Shown here: piece after piece, positions 4,601-37,313 of the stretch
How positions within the stretch are numbered: the first letter of the stretch is position 1
How the letters are laid out: the number at the start of each line of letters is the position of its first letter
Virus record (IMG/VR): IMGVR_UViG_3300030107_002094
Coordinates: 1-40,948 of that record
Origin: a virus
DNA: 40,948 bases
Reading direction: 5' to 3' (one strand)
Notes under the pieces: model-generated
Told to the model about the DNA's origin: nothing
The model's input: the letters and a program-made list of their open reading frames with translations, nothing else
Database searches by the model: none
Translations under genes and position numbers: made by a program

Positions 4601-7600
4601 TTTATATCGTCAAAATGTTTAGCAACATATTTTCTTATCTGTGGGTCTTTTAAATTTAAATCAGTTAAGTAATTAAGAAACTTTGACTTAGTTACTCTTG
4701 TGCCGTCAGTCATGCGTTTCCATAATTCTTTTACGTTTTCAATGATTTCCCTATCTAACATCTCATTCTTTTTTCCAGATGTTTTTTTAGGATTTAAAGA
4801 ACCAACAGATGTTCTTCTTGCTAGTTTTTTAGCTGTATCCTGTGCTAGCTCAAGCGCAGTCATTTTGCTTCGCAACTCTCTTTTTGAGGTTTCTATTCTT
4901 TTTGTTCTTGCATCTATGCTTAGTTTTAATTTGCTTATATAATCTAGAGATACGCCCGTTTCTTTTACTAATTCAACAGACTGCTCTGGAGTTAGATTCT
5001 TTATTGGCTTATTAAATAAGTCTAAAGATTTATTTTCAATTTTATCTATTTCAGCAATTTGTTTATCTCGACCAAATGCTAATTCATTTATTTCATGTTC
5101 AAATCGCTGTATTTTTATTCTATCACTATAAGCGTTTTCCGGGTTGGGTATATCAGGAGCGCCTAAATCTTCTTTTTCTATTTTTCTAGTCCAACCTTTA
5201 GTTGTTTTTTCTAAAGGCTGGTCTTTTAATTTTTCAAATATTTTAGCGACAACTTTTCCGTCTGGTCTTTCTAAATATCTTATAACAATATTTGTACCAA
5301 TATAATCTGATTGCTTTTCAGAAGCCCATCTATCAAATTCGTTTTTATTTTTAAATGTTTTTCCTCTTTCCCCTTTAATAGCCTGCTCTTTTTTCGCAGG
5401 CTTTAAATCTGAGGATTTCTGTACTTGTTCTAGTCCTGACTTTTTTGGTTTTCTTTTTGTTGATTTTTTTGAGGTTCCTTTTTTTATATTATGCTCAACT
5501 TTTAACTCATTGACAGTTTTTTGAGCTTCTTTAACATTTGGAGCGTATTGCGCTTCACCAATTTGATTTCCATCTTTATCAAGTTTTTGTATTGTGTGAA
5601 CTTTGCTTTTTCTATCATAAAATCTTTTTACAGATACAACTTTTCCTTCTAAACCTAATTCTCCAGATTCTACTCCCTGACTTGGAACATCTCTATCTAA
5701 ATTAACTTCTGTACTAGGCTTTTTATCTGCTTTTTCTTGGAGTATTTTTTCAACTTGCTTAGCATTATTCTGATAATCTTGTATTTCTTTTGGACTATTA
5801 CCATACTCACCAGCTTCAATTTTGTCAGCTATTTCTTGTGCTAGCTCATTTCTTTTTTTAGCTTCCTTTGCTTTTTTGGTTCTTCTTTTTGATAAATTTA
5901 TATCAACGCCGGTATTTTCTTTTTCTTTCTGAGTTCTAACTACTTTTGCTTCATTTTTTTCTATTTCTGTTTCAAGCTGTTCTGGTGTTTTTTTAAGGTC
6001 TTTTTTAGCTTTTTTTGTAAAACTATCAACAGATTCTTTTGTTTTTATGTTTAAAGGAAGCTCTAATTGTTCTGCTGTTTCAATAACAGCTTTGTCATAG
6101 GATTCTTTTACTTGCTCATTATATAAATCTAAACTTAATTGATTTGGGTCTTTTGACTTTTCAGCAAGATTTTTTTGAAAATTACTTTCAATTTTTTCAG
6201 CAACTTGTTCTTTTGTTATTGAATTAAGTTTTTTAGGAAATTCTCTTCCAACTCCATGTATAAGTCTCATTGACAAAATCATTCCTGCGCTATGAGCGTA
6301 AGTTTTAGGGTCTGACAGTCTTTCTAATAATGGTATGTCTGAATCAGCTTGTGCTTCTCCAGAAATAGCAAATCCACCCACTTCACCTAAAAATTCTCCG
6401 ACAGTCCCACCATATTTACCAAGACTTGAAAATGTTTTTCCAAATATTCCAGCTCCTACACCTCCGCTAAATCCCGTTATTGCACCAACTCTAAATGATT
6501 TAAAAACAGCAGATGAATCAAAATCGCTAACTCCAGCATTATTTAGTTGATTAAAAAATTCATTTGCGCCAGAATGTCCACCTACTCCCATTGACATACT
6601 TGCTGATTTATTTAAATACCCCACTACTGACTTTTGAGCTATTTCCATAGCCTTTTCTGGAGCAACTCCGGTTGCTGCAATCCTACCTGCTGACCTTGTA
6701 ACTAATGGCTGAACTAATTTTGCACCCAACCTTGATAAACCCGAAAAAGTAACCGCATCTACAGGCATTAAAAATGCTAGCACATCTGATGCTAGTCCAT
6801 AAGCAAAATTTGGGTTAGCATCCAACATAGCCATTTCTGTTTGAATATCTGATGTAACGCCAAACATTTTTCCAGTTAAACTTTTTTCCATAGCCAATGG
6901 AAGAACCATTGATAATTGATTCTCTTCATAGAATTTTTTTCTATCTAAAAGGCTTTTTTCTGGAGGAGGAAAAGCTGAAACTTCAGACATATCTTCTACA
7001 ACAGGAGATGTTTGTTCCATGTTAAATGTATCAATGGGTCCTTGAAAATTTACACCTTTAACTTCTTTTCCTATACTAGCAAATGTTGTAGCGGGTTGAG
7101 CAGTTACAGTTCGAGCCGATTCCTGAAGCCAATCTGGAACAATTTTATTATTTTCATTTTGAGGCGTGTAGTTAACATTAATAGCATTAGGGTTTCCAGC
7201 AGATTCAGCCATTAAAACTTGTTTTGCAATTTTTGGATTATCAAAAGATTTGTTAATAGCATCAATTTCAAAAGGCTGTAATCCAATACCAATTAAATCT
7301 TCATCAGTAATATTTTCAAATTGCTTATGGTTTCCTTTATTAAAAGCAACCCAATTATTCATTCCTAAAGGACTTTTAGAAATTTCCCCTGCTAATTGTA
7401 TTTGCTCTAAAGTGCTTAAATCATTTACAGTTTTTCCAAACATAGCCATAGAGTCTGGATTCCATTGCTTTTCATTTATTTGAAATAATCCATAATCCGT
7501 ACTATGAATTAACTGCTCTGATTCATAGTTCTCATCAGCAACTTTTCTAACCATAGGCTCAACTTCATTAGGGTTTTTTAATGCGTGGTCAAGCATTTGA

Positions 7601-7812
7601 CTTGCATCACCCTCGATTGTAGTTATTGCTGTAGATGTATTTGTTGTTGTGTCAGCTAAATCCGCAACTGTTGGTTCTGGTTGAGTAGCATATTCAGATG
7701 AAAAAATATCCCCCCAATCACTAGATTCATTTTTAGGTTCTAGTTCTGGAGTACTAGTGCTGTCTCCATATTCAGATGAAAAAATATCTCCCCAGTCGTT
7801 ATTTTGAGACAT
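1687..7812 (-). CDS. Giant DNA-ejection-type / polyvalent virion protein with lysozyme-like domain (2,041 aa)
   Basis: At 2,041 aa this is the largest gene here. The N-terminus carries a duplicated tag, DWGDIFSSEY, at residues 6-15 and 32-41. Residues about 75-165 resemble a lysozyme/soluble-lytic-transglycosylase fold (STDYGLFQIN at 104-113, then NNWVAFNKGNHK). A second SLT-like signature, AESAGNPNA, sits at 202-210. Hydrophobic segments near 355-530 are followed by a long Lys/Glu-rich, coiled-coil-prone middle (about 560-1150). The C-terminal third is helical, with GEP-type and FNWQ motifs resembling large polyvalent proteins of phages. By analogy with T7 gp16, it is probably packaged in the virion and ejected to cross the cell wall. 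The start overlaps the previous gene by 14 bases. Function is inferred from the domain, size and position. Confidence 0.8.
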   Translation of the reverse strand: MSQNNDWGDIFSSEYGDSTSTPELEPKNESSDWGDIFSSEYATQPEPTVADLADTTTNTSTAITTIEGDASQMLDHALKNPNEVEPMVRKVADENYESEQLIHSTDYGLFQINEKQWNPDSMAMFGKTVNDLSTLEQIQLAGEISKSPLGMNNWVAFNKGNHKQFENITDEDLIGIGLQPFEIDAINKSFDNPKIAKQVLMAESAGNPNAINVNYTPQNENNKIVPDWLQESARTVTAQPATTFASIGKEVKGVNFQGPIDTFNMEQTSPVVEDMSEVSAFPPPEKSLLDRKKFYEENQLSMVLPLAMEKSLTGKMFGVTSDIQTEMAMLDANPNFAYGLASDVLAFLMPVDAVTFSGLSRLGAKLVQPLVTRSAGRIAATGVAPEKAMEIAQKSVVGYLNKSASMSMGVGGHSGANEFFNQLNNAGVSDFDSSAVFKSFRVGAITGFSGGVGAGIFGKTFSSLGKYGGTVGEFLGEVGGFAISGEAQADSDIPLLERLSDPKTYAHSAGMILSMRLIHGVGREFPKKLNSITKEQVAEKIESNFQKNLAEKSKDPNQLSLDLYNEQVKESYDKAVIETAEQLELPLNIKTKESVDSFTKKAKKDLKKTPEQLETEIEKNEAKVVRTQKEKENTGVDINLSKRRTKKAKEAKKRNELAQEIADKIEAGEYGNSPKEIQDYQNNAKQVEKILQEKADKKPSTEVNLDRDVPSQGVESGELGLEGKVVSVKRFYDRKSKVHTIQKLDKDGNQIGEAQYAPNVKEAQKTVNELKVEHNIKKGTSKKSTKRKPKKSGLEQVQKSSDLKPAKKEQAIKGERGKTFKNKNEFDRWASEKQSDYIGTNIVIRYLERPDGKVVAKIFEKLKDQPLEKTTKGWTRKIEKEDLGAPDIPNPENAYSDRIKIQRFEHEINELAFGRDKQIAEIDKIENKSLDLFNKPIKNLTPEQSVELVKETGVSLDYISKLKLSIDARTKRIETSKRELRSKMTALELAQDTAKKLARRTSVGSLNPKKTSGKKNEMLDREIIENVKELWKRMTDGTRVTKSKFLNYLTDLNLKDPQIRKYVAKHFDDIKKVVELENAQQISDQILMTPKQSDGTPKPVRKTPDELQYAGPVSLYSMFPKYNQANEVRVLKEIIDNFGYDKVEKIRNRRTEKEIRRNSRKKDVLTDIFSRILNDKGDTLNWSEHVVATADLTKTMVELAFSNPKRMQDPVFNEFFNKTLEVFMQFRSEAGRALRATGLEPEVNQKAFEILANIPSEKGGEFRKLVESMTKLAEIRKENPGAITSAFWMVAEGLRNSKLLSMTSLYKSVIGNAQHSAMEILTNKSGLKLGWSNILDPKREQSGLSKFDYSKYELINKTEVYHEAFFGENGAIKSAIEIMKENPDFLRDNPLLINEAYSRFIPGKVGKVIRAPQNAQGALDALYRLPWTVTRFETLVIRQAVKELRKEIGNKNLTKENVLERSLEIKEDAQISQRLLAEAKAYGAEMVFQAPFRSKAGKKLNAIRTDQMSAGSAFFNWQVPFVLTYKNVFSKAFEFSPLVFTTHNFWEGLRMHRGNLYKMPLSKGAGTREKNSDLLAETLARGTLGTALSTIIFGAAMSLKRQNGDEAIIGGGADLSSEERDINRVLGRPPNSIKMGNNYWSFSTLGEPISIYLTAASNYHDNKTKSNKTALEKATQVIGNWVNNNPIFLQADLIADVINGRMSLPEFFAKKTAGELPPTFMKQLKSIRDGQLKRYPRGHKFKNSGEQKDAFDKLSDASKKELSPFWAFSESKDIDPSRLVYDLFGNPVPKNSNMLNMVNIRYTEDKSGDDKYLVEREYLKAFPEKGHNMQYLGGKISYGDGYTMEMSPRELQYLHEYTGKAFKAYMEKYVRHENWNSPEMDAQAKRDMFEGGRSFVNNIAKATLLNKYYEIGKYVNMFDKLARFENILITRGLLTGETEESKEMLNNIQKGLAELRNKVLPNMSDEDLQEIHRLMTNPNRYHANKHEAMSILKQNMPKAEGWVLNNTEDFEKEILNRLMNSAPDNVTPENVPYQDAFELAQ

Positions 7813-8713
7813 CTCTCATACTTTCTAATAAACCGCCAAATTCATCAAATCCTCTATATCTATTTTTATGAATCCAAAATGGGAGTTCTGATTTTCCTTT
7901 TGAAATAGCAATTTCATTCATTCTTTCAACCTCGTTAAATATTTCAGAAGAATTCATTTTTTTTATTTTTTCTATTTGTTCTTTAGGTATTTTTGCACCA
8001 CTTTTTCTAATTTGATTTATATAGTCAGTTTTTAATTGCTCAAAATCTTCGTTTAAATAAACAGTTTTATTCATATTGTAAGCTTTAAATGTTTTTTGCA
8101 GCGCTCTTTTTTCTCTTTTTCTAGCATTATAGTCTTTTTCTTTATTTTTTGGGTCTACAAAAGACATATCACTTCCTAGTTCTTTATATATTTTACTATT
8201 TGCTTTTACAAGCTGTCTAGCTTCTGCTAAACTACCAGATTTTCTATTGCTAACATCTCTAGTTTCTTCTTTATTTATTTCGCTTTTCCAAGTTTTCCAT
8301 TCGTCTTCGGTATCAATTAATGGAAGGTTTTTTTCAAAAAGACTCAAATTTAAACCCGGGTTTCTTCCTCTCATGCTTTCTAAGTAACCCATTCCCATTT
8401 CTTGATAGTTAATTGGGACATCTGGAGCTTTAGTAGGCTTTCCATAAGCTTCTTGACTTGTTCCGTGAATCACTTGCTTTGTTTTTTCATCATAAAATTT
8501 TGTTTCTGCTTTCTTTGGAGCTTCATATACAATTTCAGTTCTACCATCTTGATATACGTTTACTAGGTTACCCCCTACGGCTCGTAATTGCGGTTTATTC
8601 GCCTTTTCGGCAGCTTTGTAGTACTTCTCTCGTTCATCTGATTTATGCGTTAAATAAGTGCCTAAAAGGTCAGTGAGGACGTTTGCGTTAAATGTTGGGT
8701 CTCTGTATGCCAT
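7799..8713 (-). CDS. Putative internal virion / ejection-associated protein (304 aa)
   Basis: A 304-residue, highly charged, mostly helical protein. Near residues 45-70 it has LRAVGGNLVNVYQDGRTEIV, a short beta motif that recurs in internal virion proteins of marine phages. The rest is Lys/Glu-rich helix with no membrane segment. It ends within the first codons of the 2,041-aa gene (14-base overlap) and follows the 162-aa gene by 9 bases, so the three are one transcription and translation unit. This resembles the gp14-gp15-gp16 ejection set of T7-like phages in position and rising size, but I see no direct homology. Start ATG at 8713. Confidence 0.75.
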   Translation of the reverse strand: MAYRDPTFNANVLTDLLGTYLTHKSDEREKYYKAAEKANKPQLRAVGGNLVNVYQDGRTEIVYEAPKKAETKFYDEKTKQVIHGTSQEAYGKPTKAPDVPINYQEMGMGYLESMRGRNPGLNLSLFEKNLPLIDTEDEWKTWKSEINKEETRDVSNRKSGSLAEARQLVKANSKIYKELGSDMSFVDPKNKEKDYNARKREKRALQKTFKAYNMNKTVYLNEDFEQLKTDYINQIRKSGAKIPKEQIEKIKKMNSSEIFNEVERMNEIAISKGKSELPFWIHKNRYRGFDEFGGLLESMRDVSK

Positions 8714-24228: not shown

Positions 24229-24258
24229 AACCTAAGGTTTATAAACCTAAGGTTTATA
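24229..24258. repeat. Two tandem 15-bp repeats (AACCTAAGGTTTATA)
   Basis: AACCTAAGGTTTATA occurs twice head to tail (24229-24243, 24244-24258). The unit contains a near-palindrome AACCTAAGGTT. An AT-rich stretch of alternating TATA follows to about 24290, a candidate DNA-unwinding element. AACCTAAG recurs in the structured stretch near 25240-25260. Confidence 0.8.
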
Positions 24259-24316
24259 TATATTAGATTTATATATATACTTAATATATACTTCTACTTC
24301 TACTTCTATATGTATG

Positions 24317-24360
24317 GCAAGGCTATAGCTAAGCTATAGCAAAGCTATGGCAAGGCTATG
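24317..24360. repeat. Four tandem 11-bp iterons (GCAAGGCTATA family)
   Basis: Four contiguous units: GCAAGGCTATA, GCTAAGCTATA, GCAAAGCTATG, GCAAGGCTATG. A decayed fifth (GCTTGGCTATT) is at about 24372. The 11-bp phase places each unit on the same helical face, as in initiator-binding iterons. The 14-mer GGCAAGGCTATAGC from this array recurs exactly inside the DUF1376-type gene near 34804-34817. Confidence 0.85.
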
Positions 24361-26420: not shown

Positions 26421-26466
26421 TATTATTTCTAGCATAGGAATGTAAATGACTATGCTAGAAATAATA
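26421..26466 (+). terminator. Perfect 17-bp hairpin after the membrane-peptide gene
   Basis: TATTATTTCTAGCATAG (26421-26437) pairs perfectly with CTATGCTAGAAATAATA (26450-26466) across a 12-base loop, starting at the base after the stop codon. It has the same stem length and placement as the other stop-codon hairpins here. No U-tract. Confidence 0.65.
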
Positions 26467-26518: not shown

Positions 26519-27742
26519 ATGGGAGACTATAGCAGAAGTGAACTAAGGGCTATGAGACATAGCCGAATCAAAAAACTAGCGATAGCTAAATGTCGGCAGA
26601 CTAGCCAAGCTAGTTCGTGGGTACAATCGTCAAAGCAAGACGAATTAATCGAGTTTTTAGTCGAGGGTAAAAAACCGAGTCAAACACCACCACCAACAAT
26701 GCCGGAGACGACACCAACAAAAAACCCCTATGAAAACCCGAATCCAAGCCCGCAGCCGAGTGCTAGCGCAGGTAGTTTAGAAGATATGCTAGCCGACAAG
26801 GTAGCAGAGAGACTAGGGGATGACATCTTCAAGAAAACCGACGGAATAAGAGAGACATTTATTAAAGCTGTTGCCGAGGAAACAAAGAAAATGAAAACTC
26901 TAGTCGAAGATAAGATGAAGGACTTACAGAACCCGGTGTATGTGAAGATTAACGACGTCGAAGTTAAAAAGACCGATGGACTGAAACATAAGCAGTTTCC
27001 ATTTGTGCTAGAATGCTTAAAGCATTTCAAGCGCGTGTGGCTATGTGGTCCGAGTGGTACTGGGAAGTCGTACCTTGTTGAACAATGTGCCGAAGCTTTA
27101 GGTTTTACGACTGAAACAAATAGCTACGAATATGTTAAGGGTTCTGCCGGAGTTACCGAATCACATTTAACGGGGAGAATGACTTTTGATGGTACATTTA
27201 TAGATGGGATGGTATCTAGGGCATTTAGAGAGGGTTCGTTCCTAGCTTGTGATGAATTCGATGGATTCGATGCAAATGCCGGTCTAGTATTTAATAGTGT
27301 GCTTGACAATCAAGGAGTGTTATCGACTCCAAACAACAAAAACAATCCGGTGGCGAAGAAACACGACGACTTTCATATAGCAGTGGTGAGTAATACATGG
27401 GGAGATGGAAACGACTTTGAATTTGCCGGCAGAGGTCAAATTGACCTAGCAACCTTAGACAGACTGCAAGCAGTCAAAATTCATGTCGATTACGACAAGA
27501 ATGTCGAAAGAGCGCTAGCCGGAGATTTTACCGACATGGCAAATGTATTATGGAGTCTCAGAGATAAATGCAACCAAGAGCATGTCAGACGTACTATAAG
27601 CACGAGATTGTTTATGGATGGTCAAACATGGAGACTAGCCGGAAAGTCAAACAAGCAGTTCCTTGATATAGTAACTACCGGATGGACGAAAGAGGAAATG
27701 AGTAAGGTTAATATTAAACAAATATTAAAGGAGAGTAAATAA
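26519..27742 (+). CDS. CobS/MoxR-like AAA+ ATPase (407 aa)
   Basis: The N-terminal ~50 residues form a SAP/Rho-N-like helix pair (LRAMRHSRIKKLAIAK, SSKQDELIEFLVEG). A Pro/Thr/Ser-rich linker follows (about 52-90), then a coiled segment, then the AAA+ core: Walker A GPSGTGKS at 177-184, Walker B FLACDEFD with Asp245/Glu246, and a sensor-like VVSNTWGDG. The segment linking them (GMVSRAFREGSFLACDEFDG) matches MoxR-type ATPases such as CobS, which remodel partners together with VWA-domain proteins. The next gene, coupled through TAATG, encodes such a partner. The cellular target is unknown, and a cobalt-chelation role should not be assumed. Confidence 0.85.
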   Translation: MGDYSRSELRAMRHSRIKKLAIAKCRQTSQASSWVQSSKQDELIEFLVEGKKPSQTPPPTMPETTPTKNPYENPNPSPQPSASAGSLEDMLADKVAERLGDDIFKKTDGIRETFIKAVAEETKKMKTLVEDKMKDLQNPVYVKINDVEVKKTDGLKHKQFPFVLECLKHFKRVWLCGPSGTGKSYLVEQCAEALGFTTETNSYEYVKGSAGVTESHLTGRMTFDGTFIDGMVSRAFREGSFLACDEFDGFDANAGLVFNSVLDNQGVLSTPNNKNNPVAKKHDDFHIAVVSNTWGDGNDFEFAGRGQIDLATLDRLQAVKIHVDYDKNVERALAGDFTDMANVLWSLRDKCNQEHVRRTISTRLFMDGQTWRLAGKSNKQFLDIVTTGWTKEEMSKVNIKQILKESK

Positions 27743-28629
27743 TGAGCAACAGATTCGATAGAATTTTAGAGCCTAAAATTATCAACGACAAATTCGAGGG
27801 TAAGCACGCTATTGTTCACATGACAGACATGCGAACTTTAATTGAGTGCATATATGAGAATGAATTGTTTACCGACGAGAGAAGTAAAAAATGGCAATAT
27901 GGTAAACATATTGTCGGTAGAGAAAACCTAAAGCGCGCTCTGACCATAGGCAGAACATCTGACTCGATGATGAGATTGTACCAAAAACTTCGTGCTAGCA
28001 TAGATACTAGAATCGACGTTTCTAAGTTCGTAGGCAAGGGGTTATCATGTAAACGAAAGCGTGTTCGCAGAGATGATGGAGACGATTTAAGTATGTCGAG
28101 ATTAATGGGTGGCTCCGACCAATATTGGGAGACTACTATTCGGAAGTCTAAGCGTGCGAATGTGAGAATTGGTATGAATATGGCAATATCTCACGAACAT
28201 AGAGAGCGTGATTTTGCAAGACTTGGAGCCACGCTAGCATGCATTTGTGATGTTATTACAAAGCTGGGATATGGTGTGGAAGTTATTGCCTATAACTTTG
28301 TTAGGTATAACGGAAAACATAAATGGAAACATTGGGGTATGTCAGTACCAATTAAGATGCCTAATGAGCCTATGGATATACACAGACTTATGACCGCCGG
28401 CTTACCCGGACTATTCAGAGATTATATGTTCGGCTTAATGGAGAAAAAATACAAGTTCGGCTATGGTCTTGGTCGCCAATGTGAAACTACAGATACATAT
28501 AAGCGCGAATTAAATCTAATCCATGCGGTAGAGCAACGATTCTGTAAAACCGATGACGACACTATCGACGGACTAGAAAAAGCACTTCAAACAATAGCAA
28601 ATCCACCGAAATGGATGAGTATTAATTAA
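27742..28629 (+). CDS. CobT/VWA-like partner protein (295 aa)
   Basis: A 295-residue protein translated from a TAATG overlap with the AAA+ gene. Residues about 30-120 are basic and helical, including SCKRKRVRRDDGDD. Residues about 140-280 resemble a von Willebrand A/CobT-type fold: strand RIGMNMAIS, a helix DFARLGATLACICDVITKLG, strand VEVIAYNF, and later GLPGLFRDYMFGLM. The MIDAS D-x-S-x-S is degenerate (N-M-A-I-S), so metal binding is doubtful. MoxR/VWA pairs act as chaperone-like remodelling machines. This is the inferred partner of the ATPase. The stop codon is inside a repeated 17-bp hairpin. Confidence 0.7.
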   Translation: MSNRFDRILEPKIINDKFEGKHAIVHMTDMRTLIECIYENELFTDERSKKWQYGKHIVGRENLKRALTIGRTSDSMMRLYQKLRASIDTRIDVSKFVGKGLSCKRKRVRRDDGDDLSMSRLMGGSDQYWETTIRKSKRANVRIGMNMAISHEHRERDFARLGATLACICDVITKLGYGVEVIAYNFVRYNGKHKWKHWGMSVPIKMPNEPMDIHRLMTAGLPGLFRDYMFGLMEKKYKFGYGLGRQCETTDTYKRELNLIHAVEQRFCKTDDDTIDGLEKALQTIANPPKWMSIN

Positions 28630-28668
28630 TTATTACTTGATACTTTAGTGAAAGTAATAATTAATTAA
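28622..28668 (+). repeat. Repeated 17-bp stop-codon hairpin, copy 1
   Basis: TTAATTAATTATTACTT pairs with AAGTAATAATTAATTAA across a 13-base loop (GATACTTTAGTGA). Its 41-base core (28625-28665) is identical, loop included, to that at 30744-30784. The stop codon of the VWA-like gene lies in the 5' arm. Identity of the loop points to duplication or selection on sequence, not just on structure. Confidence 0.8.
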
Positions 28669-28688: not shown

Positions 28689-29177
28689 ATGAGTGTCAAA
28701 AAAACAGAAATTGAAACAAAATTTGGACTGCCAAAACAAGCGAAAGATAAAATCTTGAAAGATGCGCTTAGTAAGTGTGATGCAATCACAGATAAGCTAG
28801 CGTGTGAGGAAATAATGCGCTTTTGCCTAAACACACTACTAATGTCGGTCAGTAAAGTTTTAAGTGGTGTATCTAAAGAGGATTTCAGCCAAGAGCATCG
28901 AGTCCATTTAATCTCAACAATAGTTGCTGATGTTGAAACATTAATTATGCCGGTGGTATCTAGGCTACTAGATAAAGACCCGGAAAAAGGAACATTTGAC
29001 GGCACTAGGCTAGCAAGAGAAACAAACACTATACGAGAAAATGAAACATTTCATGTAGAACACAAATCTACAGATGCCGGGCAAGAGATGCGAGTTAGCA
29101 TAGGAACAGAAATGCCTAGAGAAGTAGCTGAATTCATGGAAAATTTTGACGAAAACACTATCGTCGGAAATTCTTAA
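28689..29177 (+). CDS. Hypothetical helical protein (162 aa)
   Basis: A 162-residue protein with amphipathic helices through about residue 110 (KQAKDKILKDALSKCDAIT, HRVHLISTIVADVETLI), then an acidic C-terminal part (AGQEMRVSIGTEMPREVAEF). No membrane segment, Cys cluster or known motif. An RBS (GGAGAC) follows the recurrent CCAACA leader. It lies between the ATPase/VWA pair and a PC4-like gene; involvement with either is only inferred from proximity. Confidence 0.7.
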   Translation: MSVKKTEIETKFGLPKQAKDKILKDALSKCDAITDKLACEEIMRFCLNTLLMSVSKVLSGVSKEDFSQEHRVHLISTIVADVETLIMPVVSRLLDKDPEKGTFDGTRLARETNTIRENETFHVEHKSTDAGQEMRVSIGTEMPREVAEFMENFDENTIVGNS

Positions 29178-29519: not shown

Positions 29520-30263
29520 ATGAATGTAAAACAAAAACATAGTGAAATTTATATGACGACAGATTATTCGATGTTTTCTAGCATGAAACACAATCGAAAT
29601 GTAAGTGAGGCGCATATTCATAGGCTTATGAAAAGCATGAGCGAAAAACAATACCCTGTACCTATAGTCGTCAATGAAAAGAATGAAATAGCTGATGGGC
29701 AAAACAGATTCGAGGCAATTAAAGCGCTTAATTTGCCTGTATATTATATGGTAATTCCCGGACTAACTATTGACGATGTTAAAAGACTTAACCGAGATAA
29801 TAAGACATGGAACGAAATAGATTATGCTGAAAGTAACGCGTCTCAAGGTCGTTCTAGCTACAAACAATATTTGCTCTTCAGAAAGGAGTTCGGATTTGGA
29901 CACATGATAACGCTCTCACTACTTGCAGACCACACAAGCGACCAAAAATTTGTAAATAAATTATTTTACGACGGAGCTTTGGAGGTAAAAGATTATGAGC
30001 TAGCACGAACTAATGCCAACAAACTTAGAGCGTGTAGGGAGTTTTATGATGGGTGGAAGATGCGCTCGTTTGTATATGCTATGCTGAAATTATTCAAGTC
30101 GCCGGAATACGACCATAAAAGATTTCTGAAAAAGCTAGCACTAAAACCTAGAGAATATATCCGAAACTTAAGGCTAATAAGAAATATTGTAGATGCTAAT
30201 AGAGCCATCGAAGATATTTATAACTATAATACCACAAGCAATAAGAAAGTGAGGCTTTATTAG
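29520..30263 (+). CDS. ParB-like nuclease/partition-domain protein (247 aa)
   Basis: Residues about 15-100 match the ParB/sulfiredoxin-like N-terminal domain: NVSEAHIHRLMKSM, YPVPIVVNEKNEIADGQNRF (DGQNRFEA at 59-66, the DG-x-x-R motif that binds nucleotide in this superfamily), then VYYMVIPGLTIDDVKRLNRD. The C-terminal 140 residues are basic and helical, possibly DNA-binding. Phage members act in transcription control, DNA partition or as nucleases; no partition ATPase is present here, so regulation or a CTP/ATP-dependent enzyme role is more likely. RBS GGAGAG. It ends TAGTG, overlapping the next GTG start. Confidence 0.75.
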   Translation: MNVKQKHSEIYMTTDYSMFSSMKHNRNVSEAHIHRLMKSMSEKQYPVPIVVNEKNEIADGQNRFEAIKALNLPVYYMVIPGLTIDDVKRLNRDNKTWNEIDYAESNASQGRSSYKQYLLFRKEFGFGHMITLSLLADHTSDQKFVNKLFYDGALEVKDYELARTNANKLRACREFYDGWKMRSFVYAMLKLFKSPEYDHKRFLKKLALKPREYIRNLRLIRNIVDANRAIEDIYNYNTTSNKKVRLY

Positions 30264-30547: not shown

Positions 30548-30748
30548 ATGAGCGAAACAACAGATTGCATAGATAAAGAAAGTCAAATAGAAAGACTTGA
30601 GTACATCCAAGAAAAAACTAAATACAATGTGGTTTATTGTGGAAAGTGCGGAATCGCTTTAATTGTATTAACCGCGCATGAATTAGTTAAGTGTGATGAG
30701 TGTGGATTTTGGTCTGACCATTGCGACTTTCCGGACATAGTTTATTAA
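30548..30748 (+). CDS. Small zinc-ribbon protein (66 aa)
   Basis: A 66-residue protein: an acidic helical start (IDKESQIERLEYIQEKTKY), then CGKCGIALIVLTAHELVKCD, then ECGFW, which is a C-x2-C...C-x2-C ribbon. RBS AAGGA is upstream of the ATG. The stop codon lies in the second copy of the repeated 17-bp hairpin. Function unknown. Confidence 0.65.
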   Translation: MSETTDCIDKESQIERLEYIQEKTKYNVVYCGKCGIALIVLTAHELVKCDECGFWSDHCDFPDIVY

Positions 30749-30787
30749 TTATTACTTGATACTTTAGTGAAAGTAATAATTAATAAA
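30741..30787 (+). repeat. Repeated 17-bp stop-codon hairpin, copy 2
   Basis: The core 30744-30784 is identical, loop included, to 28625-28665. Again the stop codon of the upstream gene (TAA at 30746) lies in the 5' arm and a new cistron begins shortly after. Two perfect copies 2.1 kb apart make chance very unlikely. Confidence 0.8.
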
Positions 30788-36779: not shown

Positions 36780-37313
36780 TTATTCCTCCGTTAGGTTATT
36801 GGTTGTTGTTTTAAATGAAAATTTTGTCTCCACTTCCTCTGAACATATGTCCGGAGCATCTCCCCATATTTTTATGTGTTCAGCAATAGCTTTTTTATCC
36901 GGCTTTTCCGTTACTCTAGTGGGAATAGAATTGTCAAATGAAAATTTCATTAAAGCCTCGTCATCGGCAAATGTTTTTTTAGTTCGAGTTGTTAATCGAA
37001 TAACTCCATTTGGCAGTTTATTTGTTTTCTTGCCGGAGATTTTATTTTCTGATTGCATGTGGATTTCTAGTAAGTTTGCCCTATATCGTATTTGCCTTTC
37101 AACAGAGTCTATTCTTCGGTCATAAAACTCAGAAGATTCTTCTTGCCTAAGTTTTAATACTTCAATTTCTTTTTCTAATTGCCCTATCTTCCATAGCAGT
37201 TGGTCAGCGTGAATGTCTTTTATTTGGACTTGTTCCTCATTAATAACATATGTGTTATCTTCGGATTCTAATTCGTCAAGAGCAATTAGTTGGCTATTAA
37301 GTTTTTCGCTCAT
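36780..37313 (-). CDS. Gam-like host-nuclease inhibitor (177 aa)
   Basis: Residues about 33-85 form a long coiled coil (QLLWKIGQLEKEIEVLKLRQ, EFYDRRIDSVERQIRYRANL). About 90-125 read SENKISGKKTNKLPNGVIRL then TTRTKKTFADDEALMKF, the beta part typical of Mu Gam-like proteins, which bind DNA ends and shield them from RecBCD-type nucleases. It precedes the annealing protein by 2 bases, a common pairing. The start shares bases with the previous stop (ATGA). Confidence 0.7.
   Translation of the reverse strand: MSEKLNSQLIALDELESEDNTYVINEEQVQIKDIHADQLLWKIGQLEKEIEVLKLRQEESSEFYDRRIDSVERQIRYRANLLEIHMQSENKISGKKTNKLPNGVIRLTTRTKKTFADDEALMKFSFDNSIPTRVTEKPDKKAIAEHIKIWGDAPDICSEEVETKFSFKTTTNNLTEE

Follow-up and report, generated by a model that had tools for sequence, protein, structure and literature searches.

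A two-gene unit at positions 26519 to 28629, on the plus strand of IMG/VR virus record IMGVR_UViG_3300030107_002094 (40,948 bases, all of which we analyzed and call the window), encodes a MoxR-class AAA+ ATPase and a small partner with a predicted von Willebrand factor A (VWA)-like fold. We think it likely that the pair is a MoxR AAA+/VWA-type chaperone for protein remodelling, with a compact adaptor that works independently of a metal ion-dependent adhesion site (MIDAS). This reading draws on the pairing of the two genes, the predicted folds of the single chains, the intact motifs of the ATPase, the loss of MIDAS from the adaptor, and the lack of CobN.

A MoxR-class ATPase and its DUF7192 partner

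Both open reading frames (ORFs) lie where the earlier sequence-only reading of this DNA had placed them, and each is preceded by a GGAG ribosome-binding site; the TAA stop of the ATPase gene and the ATG start of the partner gene share 1 nucleotide. Their features are as follows.

26519..27742, plus strand: MoxR-class AAA+ ATPase, 407 amino acids (PHROG_249, "porphyrin biosynthesis"; Pfam AAA_5)
26519..26665, plus strand: N-terminal helical region of the ATPase, residues 1-49 (model helices 6-27, 33-36, and 40-49)
27047..27070, plus strand: Walker A, GPSGTGKS, residues 177-184 (K183 invariant in 82 homologues)
27158..27208, plus strand: helix-2 insert β-hairpin, approximately residues 214-230 (AlphaFold2 [AF2] model)
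27245..27262, plus strand: Walker B, ACDEFD, residues 243-248 (D245 and E246 invariant)
27389..27409, plus strand: sensor 1 region, SNTWGDG (N292 invariant)
27742..28629, plus strand: DUF7192 partner, 295 amino acids, predicted compact VWA-like adaptor (Pfam, AF2, and Foldseek)
28051..28140, plus strand: strand-helix-strand segment of the partner, residues 104-133, before the MIDAS strand; putative equivalent of the pore-inserted finger of NorD
28177..28191, plus strand: degenerate MIDAS of the partner, NMAIS, residues 146-150 (columns counted in 92 sequences)

The ATPase matches Pfam AAA_5 (expect value [E] of 4.7e-14) and phrog_249 (E = 4.5e-41), and among solved sequences its profile finds midasin, CobS (E = 1.3e-27), CbbQ, and NorQ (4e-18). 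As the sequence-only reading had claimed, the Walker motifs are intact (G177-PSGTGK-S184; D245/E246). The protein carries the Walker A, Walker B, sensor 1, arginine finger, and sensor 2 features of the MoxR class (clade 7), and K183, D245, E246, N292, R315, R348, and R363 are invariant across the 82 homologues. Its AF2 model (predicted local distance difference test [pLDDT], 87.9) is closest in fold to CbbQ (Z = 21.1) and NorQ (Z = 21.0), and includes a helix-2 insert (helix 214-218, then strands 219-221 and 227-229); such a β-hairpin is a hallmark of the MoxR clade (PMC13036017). The same reading had also seen a SAP-like N terminus. The model does place helices in residues 1-49, but the Pfam SAP profile matched neither the whole ATPase nor residues 1-60 alone at E ≤ 1, and we do not retain that assignment.

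The partner belongs to Pfam family DUF7192 (PF23822), passing its 27-bit gathering cutoff (45.8 bits; E = 6.3e-12), and matches PHROG_1909 and PHROG_35469; all 92 members of our non-redundant partner alignment match DUF7192 in Pfam. Neither DUF7192 nor PHROG_1909 carries a functional description; a VWA-like fold and linkage to the ATPase are what this analysis adds. The partner was modelled with AF2 from the 92-sequence alignment, built from loci gathered here (pLDDT, 91.9; predicted template modelling score, 0.86). In a Foldseek search with this model, the only PDB chains below an E value of 0.001 were NorD VWA domains in NorQ-NorD complexes (4.7e-6 to 4.4e-5). VIA-align gave Z scores of 8.6 (191 aligned residues; root mean square deviation [rmsd], 6.7) and 8.2 against NorD VWA and 6.8 (168 aligned; rmsd, 4.4) against the MIDAS domain of Rea1 (Rea1/Mdn1). 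Among viral models, DUF7192 proteins rank first, followed by CobT and vWFA proteins, and hhalign aligned the partner profile to a phage CobT with a probability of 73% and the MIDAS strand in register. Since the sequence profile of the partner yielded only chance matches against the PDB, the evidence for a VWA domain comes from the fold prediction and hhalign; on that basis we assign the VWA (Rossmann-like) fold with moderate strength, in agreement with the VWA-like fold first proposed for this 295-residue protein. The ATPase-NorQ and partner-NorD matches are independent of each other, so both halves of the pair point to one solved machine, NorQ-NorD.

The pairing of the ATPase with DUF7192 is near-obligate. 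We scanned 2.9 million viral contigs with an ATPase-only DNA motif, GR..[LI]D.ATLDR[FL], and obtained at least 120 loci. Among the matches listed, a DUF7192-like ORF lies near the ATPase on the same strand in 113 of 120 (97 downstream and 16 upstream), and six of the seven partnerless loci end within ~350 bases of the ATPase. The same motif found 107 true ATPase loci in bacterial and archaeal species genomes; the partner adjoins the ATPase in 97 (90 downstream, 7 upstream, and none on the opposite strand), and 8 of the other 10 loci are cut at a sequence end. Because most of the ATPases from which the motif was derived were already paired with DUF7192, these figures hold for the DUF7192-linked subfamily; ATPases outside it, as in CRP-810 and S-ShM2, have CobT-type or "peptidase" partners. 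Eight annotated phages have a protein of 254 to 303 amino acids, with no function described, after a PHROG_249-type ATPase, and in each of them it is DUF7192; the eight comprise phages that infect Staphylococcus, Acinetobacter, Mycobacterium, Listeria (two kinds), and Lactobacillus, a crAss-like phage, and a podovirus. Pairwise distances of ATPases and partners are correlated (Mantel r = 0.73 for 151 non-redundant pairs; permutation maximum, 0.08). The relatives of the partner were reached via the ATPase and hidden Markov models; scans with single proteins gave close relatives only, and a tblastn search of 50,697 phage records with the partner returned no match. Thus, both a predicted VWA fold in the partner and conserved co-occurrence of the two genes, the points on which the sequence-only reading had staked itself, were found.

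Three loci carry two tandem DUF7192 genes next to one ATPase gene (L080, 2388-4151; L138, 886-2625; L178, 3919-5723), suggesting duplicated adaptors.

Several points weigh against a NorQ-NorD-like chaperone. The structure predictions cover single chains. The match of the adaptor to NorD is moderate: its Z score of 8.6 lies close to the 7 to 8 attainable between unrelated models, with an overall rmsd of 6.7. None of the 92 DUF7192 partners matches a Pfam VWA model at E ≤ 0.1, and the distance correlation may partly mirror shared history.

MIDAS loss and a putative pore-inserted finger

The degenerate MIDAS noted from the sequence (N-M-A-I-S) is present, and the alignment extends it to the family: the full DxSxS occurs in only 2 of 92 partners, at the first position 43 have N and 16 have D, and the window partner reads N146-M-A-I-S150. 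MIDAS loss is a trait of the family. In NorD, the MIDAS is required for the target but not for NorQ (PMC9976466). Since it is the target that the NorD MIDAS serves, its loss from DUF7192 suggests a different way of holding substrate, which is probably gripped by another surface rather than bridged through a metal ion.

A finger from the NorD VWA domain enters the ATPase pore (PMC13036017). The putative counterpart in the partner model comprises strand 106-110, helix 118-123, and strand 129-133; it contains two of the family's most conserved residues, G113 (kept in 83 of 92 partners) and G124 (85 of 92), and the phage CobT segment aligned with it likewise precedes the CobT MIDAS strand. The very basic segment that the sequence-only reading had remarked on is real (KRKRVRR, residues 104-110) but is not a DUF7192 trait: its seven K/R residues are the top of the family range (0 to 7, with a median of ~2 elsewhere). 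We infer that this stretch leads into the finger rather than forming a DNA-binding site.

By analogy with NorQ-NorD, the ATPase would assemble as a hexameric ring, and one DUF7192 protein would dock into its pore by the finger (approximately residues 104 to 133). The adaptor might then rotate or pull with each ATP cycle, in a twisting motion, while its other surface holds the substrate, so that the motion could pry open or rearrange a substrate complex.

Distribution and candidate targets

The sequence-only reading had proposed a phage machine; this is too narrow, because bacterial genomes also carry the pair, with large chromosomal contigs among the bacterial copies. The pair is present in 1 of 51 genomes of a Streptomyces set, which rules out a vertically inherited chromosomal gene in that genus, and in 4 of 49 genomes of a Bacilli-family set. 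On a FastTree phylogeny of the ATPases, virus and cell labels require 18 changes by parsimony, compared to 46 in shuffles, and well-supported branches force at least 7; the window ATPase groups with its close relatives on a long branch of their own. The pair thus acts as an independent unit of two genes and has passed between viruses and cells, although chromosomal copies may include prophage remnants.

Viral cobST genes were proposed earlier to hijack host CobN (Liu et al. 2021, PMC8651126), and on that model the present pair would encode CobS/CobT-like subunits that work with CobN taken from the host and so boost cobalamin production. The ATPase is indeed kin to CobS and falls in PHROG_249 ("porphyrin biosynthesis"), and the partner is distantly similar to the VWA region of CobT. 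However, the ATPase scores 25.7 bits against the CobS equivalog cutoff of 558.55, and the partner lacks the CobT domains (PF06213 and PF11775), both of which the CobT of Roseobacter phage CRP-810 matches, as well as the CobT N-terminal domain and the MIDAS. CobN is absent from the window record. Of the 31 bacterial genomes with the pair, 24 lack CobN, some of them draft metagenome-assembled genomes and several of them isolates; the same search found it in the other 7 and in 5 of 14 controls. The pair is also carried by Lactobacillus and S. aureus phages, although S. aureus is not known to make cobalamin. We therefore regard cobalt chelation as very unlikely and a CobN-borrowing viral enzyme as highly improbable, in line with the sequence-only reading, which had seen no cobalamin genes nearby. 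The CobST-CobN proposals (PMC8651126) may hold for true CobT partners but do not fit the DUF7192-linked subfamily. Related phage ATPases are labelled "porphyrin biosynthesis" or CobS, and viral cobS is counted as a B12 auxiliary metabolic gene; for this subfamily, the B12/porphyrin label looks wrong, which bears on claims about viral effects on marine B12.

If the pair is a chaperone, what does it act on? No third gene recurs beside it: every family is limited to 5 or fewer of 138 flanking genes in phages and, by Pfam scan, to 4 or fewer of 128 in chromosomes. A phage structural complex would make the pair a virion-assembly chaperone, for which there is experimental precedent in an archaeal virus (ATV p618/p892; reviewed in PMC4124505) and a proposal for jumbo phages (PMC7824862), and terminase genes do occur among some phage neighbors. 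In the window, however, the structural genes (terminase, P22-type portal, and SU10-type capsid) are on the minus strand at 1.2 to 24 kb, away from the plus-strand block that holds the pair, and chromosomal copies without adjoining virion genes argue against assembly as a universal role; we consider this target unlikely. The AAA/vWA neighbors of haloviruses sit in a replication/accessory module (PMC7911831). The sequence-only reading had suggested remodelling of a host or phage nucleoprotein complex, and remodelling rather than chelation is the part that stands. A nucleoprotein complex from phage or host, be it for replication, transcription, or another process, is consistent with neighbors in other phages (DNA primase, polymerase, RuvC, and dCMP deaminase), with a ParB-like gene ~0.9 kb downstream in the window, and with the basic segment of the window's clade; yet that segment is no family trait and lies on a strand toward the putative docking finger, no SAP domain was found, and no neighbor family recurs; we rate this target as unlikely as well.

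A mobile conflict module, in which the pair serves bacteria as a defense or fitness island while phages use it to shut out competitors or overcome defense, would suit the patchy presence and the virus/cell switches described above, and MoxR-vWA conflict systems are on record (PMC7159879). With PADLOC, however, DUF7192 had no match and the ATPase had weak AAA-domain matches at most, nor did any defense neighbor recur among the 128 chromosomal flanking genes; we judge this, too, improbable. It is still less probable that the pair matures a metalloenzyme by loading it with a metal or cofactor: this is what NorQD, the closest solved complex, does for nitric oxide reductase (PMC13036017), but no metalloenzyme gene recurrently adjoins the pair, and the MIDAS that NorD needs for its target (PMC9976466) is lost here. 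Beyond the chaperone reading itself, we suggest only tentatively that this is a minimal MoxR/VWA machine without a metal-dependent MIDAS grip, spreading as a two-gene unit among phages and bacteria of many phyla and acting on a shared cellular target in phage-host conflict.

Two inverted repeats flank the pair in the window:

26421..26466, plus strand: perfect 17-bp inverted repeat with a 12-nucleotide loop, just upstream of the pair
28622..28668, plus strand: perfect 17-bp inverted repeat with a 13-nucleotide loop, at the 3' end of the pair

Such 17-bp repeats, perfect or near-perfect and with constant 12- to 13-nucleotide loops, are intergenic in this phage group, both ends of the pair included. 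The upstream hairpin has a counterpart at 4685-4730 of the related locus L004, where pairing is kept by a compensated change (CATAG/CTATG to CATAA/TTATG); near-identical arms of the 3' repeat recur at window positions 30741-30787 and at 7808-7854 and 8868-8914 of L004. These repeats may serve as terminators, as processing sites, or as sites for protein binding. Following the pair, a gene at 28689-29177 encodes a 162-amino-acid protein that matches no Pfam or PHROG family above chance; similar proteins occur in loci L003, L004, and L006 despite inserted genes. The ParB-like protein is encoded at 29520-30263 (PHROG_12305; E = 2.9e-28), and a Mu Gam-like protein, possibly a host-nuclease inhibitor, at 36780-37313 (Pfam E = 9.6e-07). 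Between divergent gene blocks, overlapping palindromes (AACCTAAGGTTTAT and GCTATAGC) are densely clustered at window positions 24229-24351 and at 2592-2724 of L004; this cluster, shared by the two, is a possible origin or regulatory region.

Relation to known MoxR-VWA systems

The sequence-only reading had picked out the pair as a candidate undescribed system. MoxR-VWA pairs in viruses are already published (PMC7824862, PMC7911831, PMC4124505, and PMC8651126), but our full-text literature search found no paper naming DUF7192 and no description of its compact version of the pair. For DUF7192, the analysis supplies a fold prediction, a partner that it almost always accompanies, and a mechanism open to testing; the phages that carry it infect Staphylococcus, Listeria, Mycobacterium, Acinetobacter, and Lactobacillus or are crAss-like, and they include tractable laboratory phages.

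Rea1/Midasin strips assembly factors from pre-60S ribosomes. Like the predicted DUF7192 adaptor, its MIDAS-type VWA domain docks on a related AAA+ ring (PMC13036017), but Rea1 is a single giant eukaryotic polypeptide whose VWA domain bears the MIDAS. The ATV p618-p892 pair and the MoxR-vWA-peptidase pairs of jumbo phages resemble the window pair in joining a virus-encoded MoxR ATPase to a VWA partner in a chaperone role, acting or proposed. Their VWA partners are larger, however, and in jumbo phages are fused to a peptidase; the window partner is minimal, VWA-like, and without a peptidase, and does not match PHROG_459, which we used as a proxy for peptidase-fused VWA partners (from a cyanophage "peptidase"). 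NorQ-NorD resembles the pair in both halves (Z of ~21 for the ATPase with NorQ and 8.6 for the partner with the NorD VWA domain) and in the strand-helix-strand segment before the MIDAS strand. We saw no nitric oxide reductase genes in the window, and the adaptors differ in build: NorD, at ~70 kDa, has an intact MIDAS and additional domains (N-terminal and linker), whereas the window partner has 295 residues and a degenerate MIDAS.
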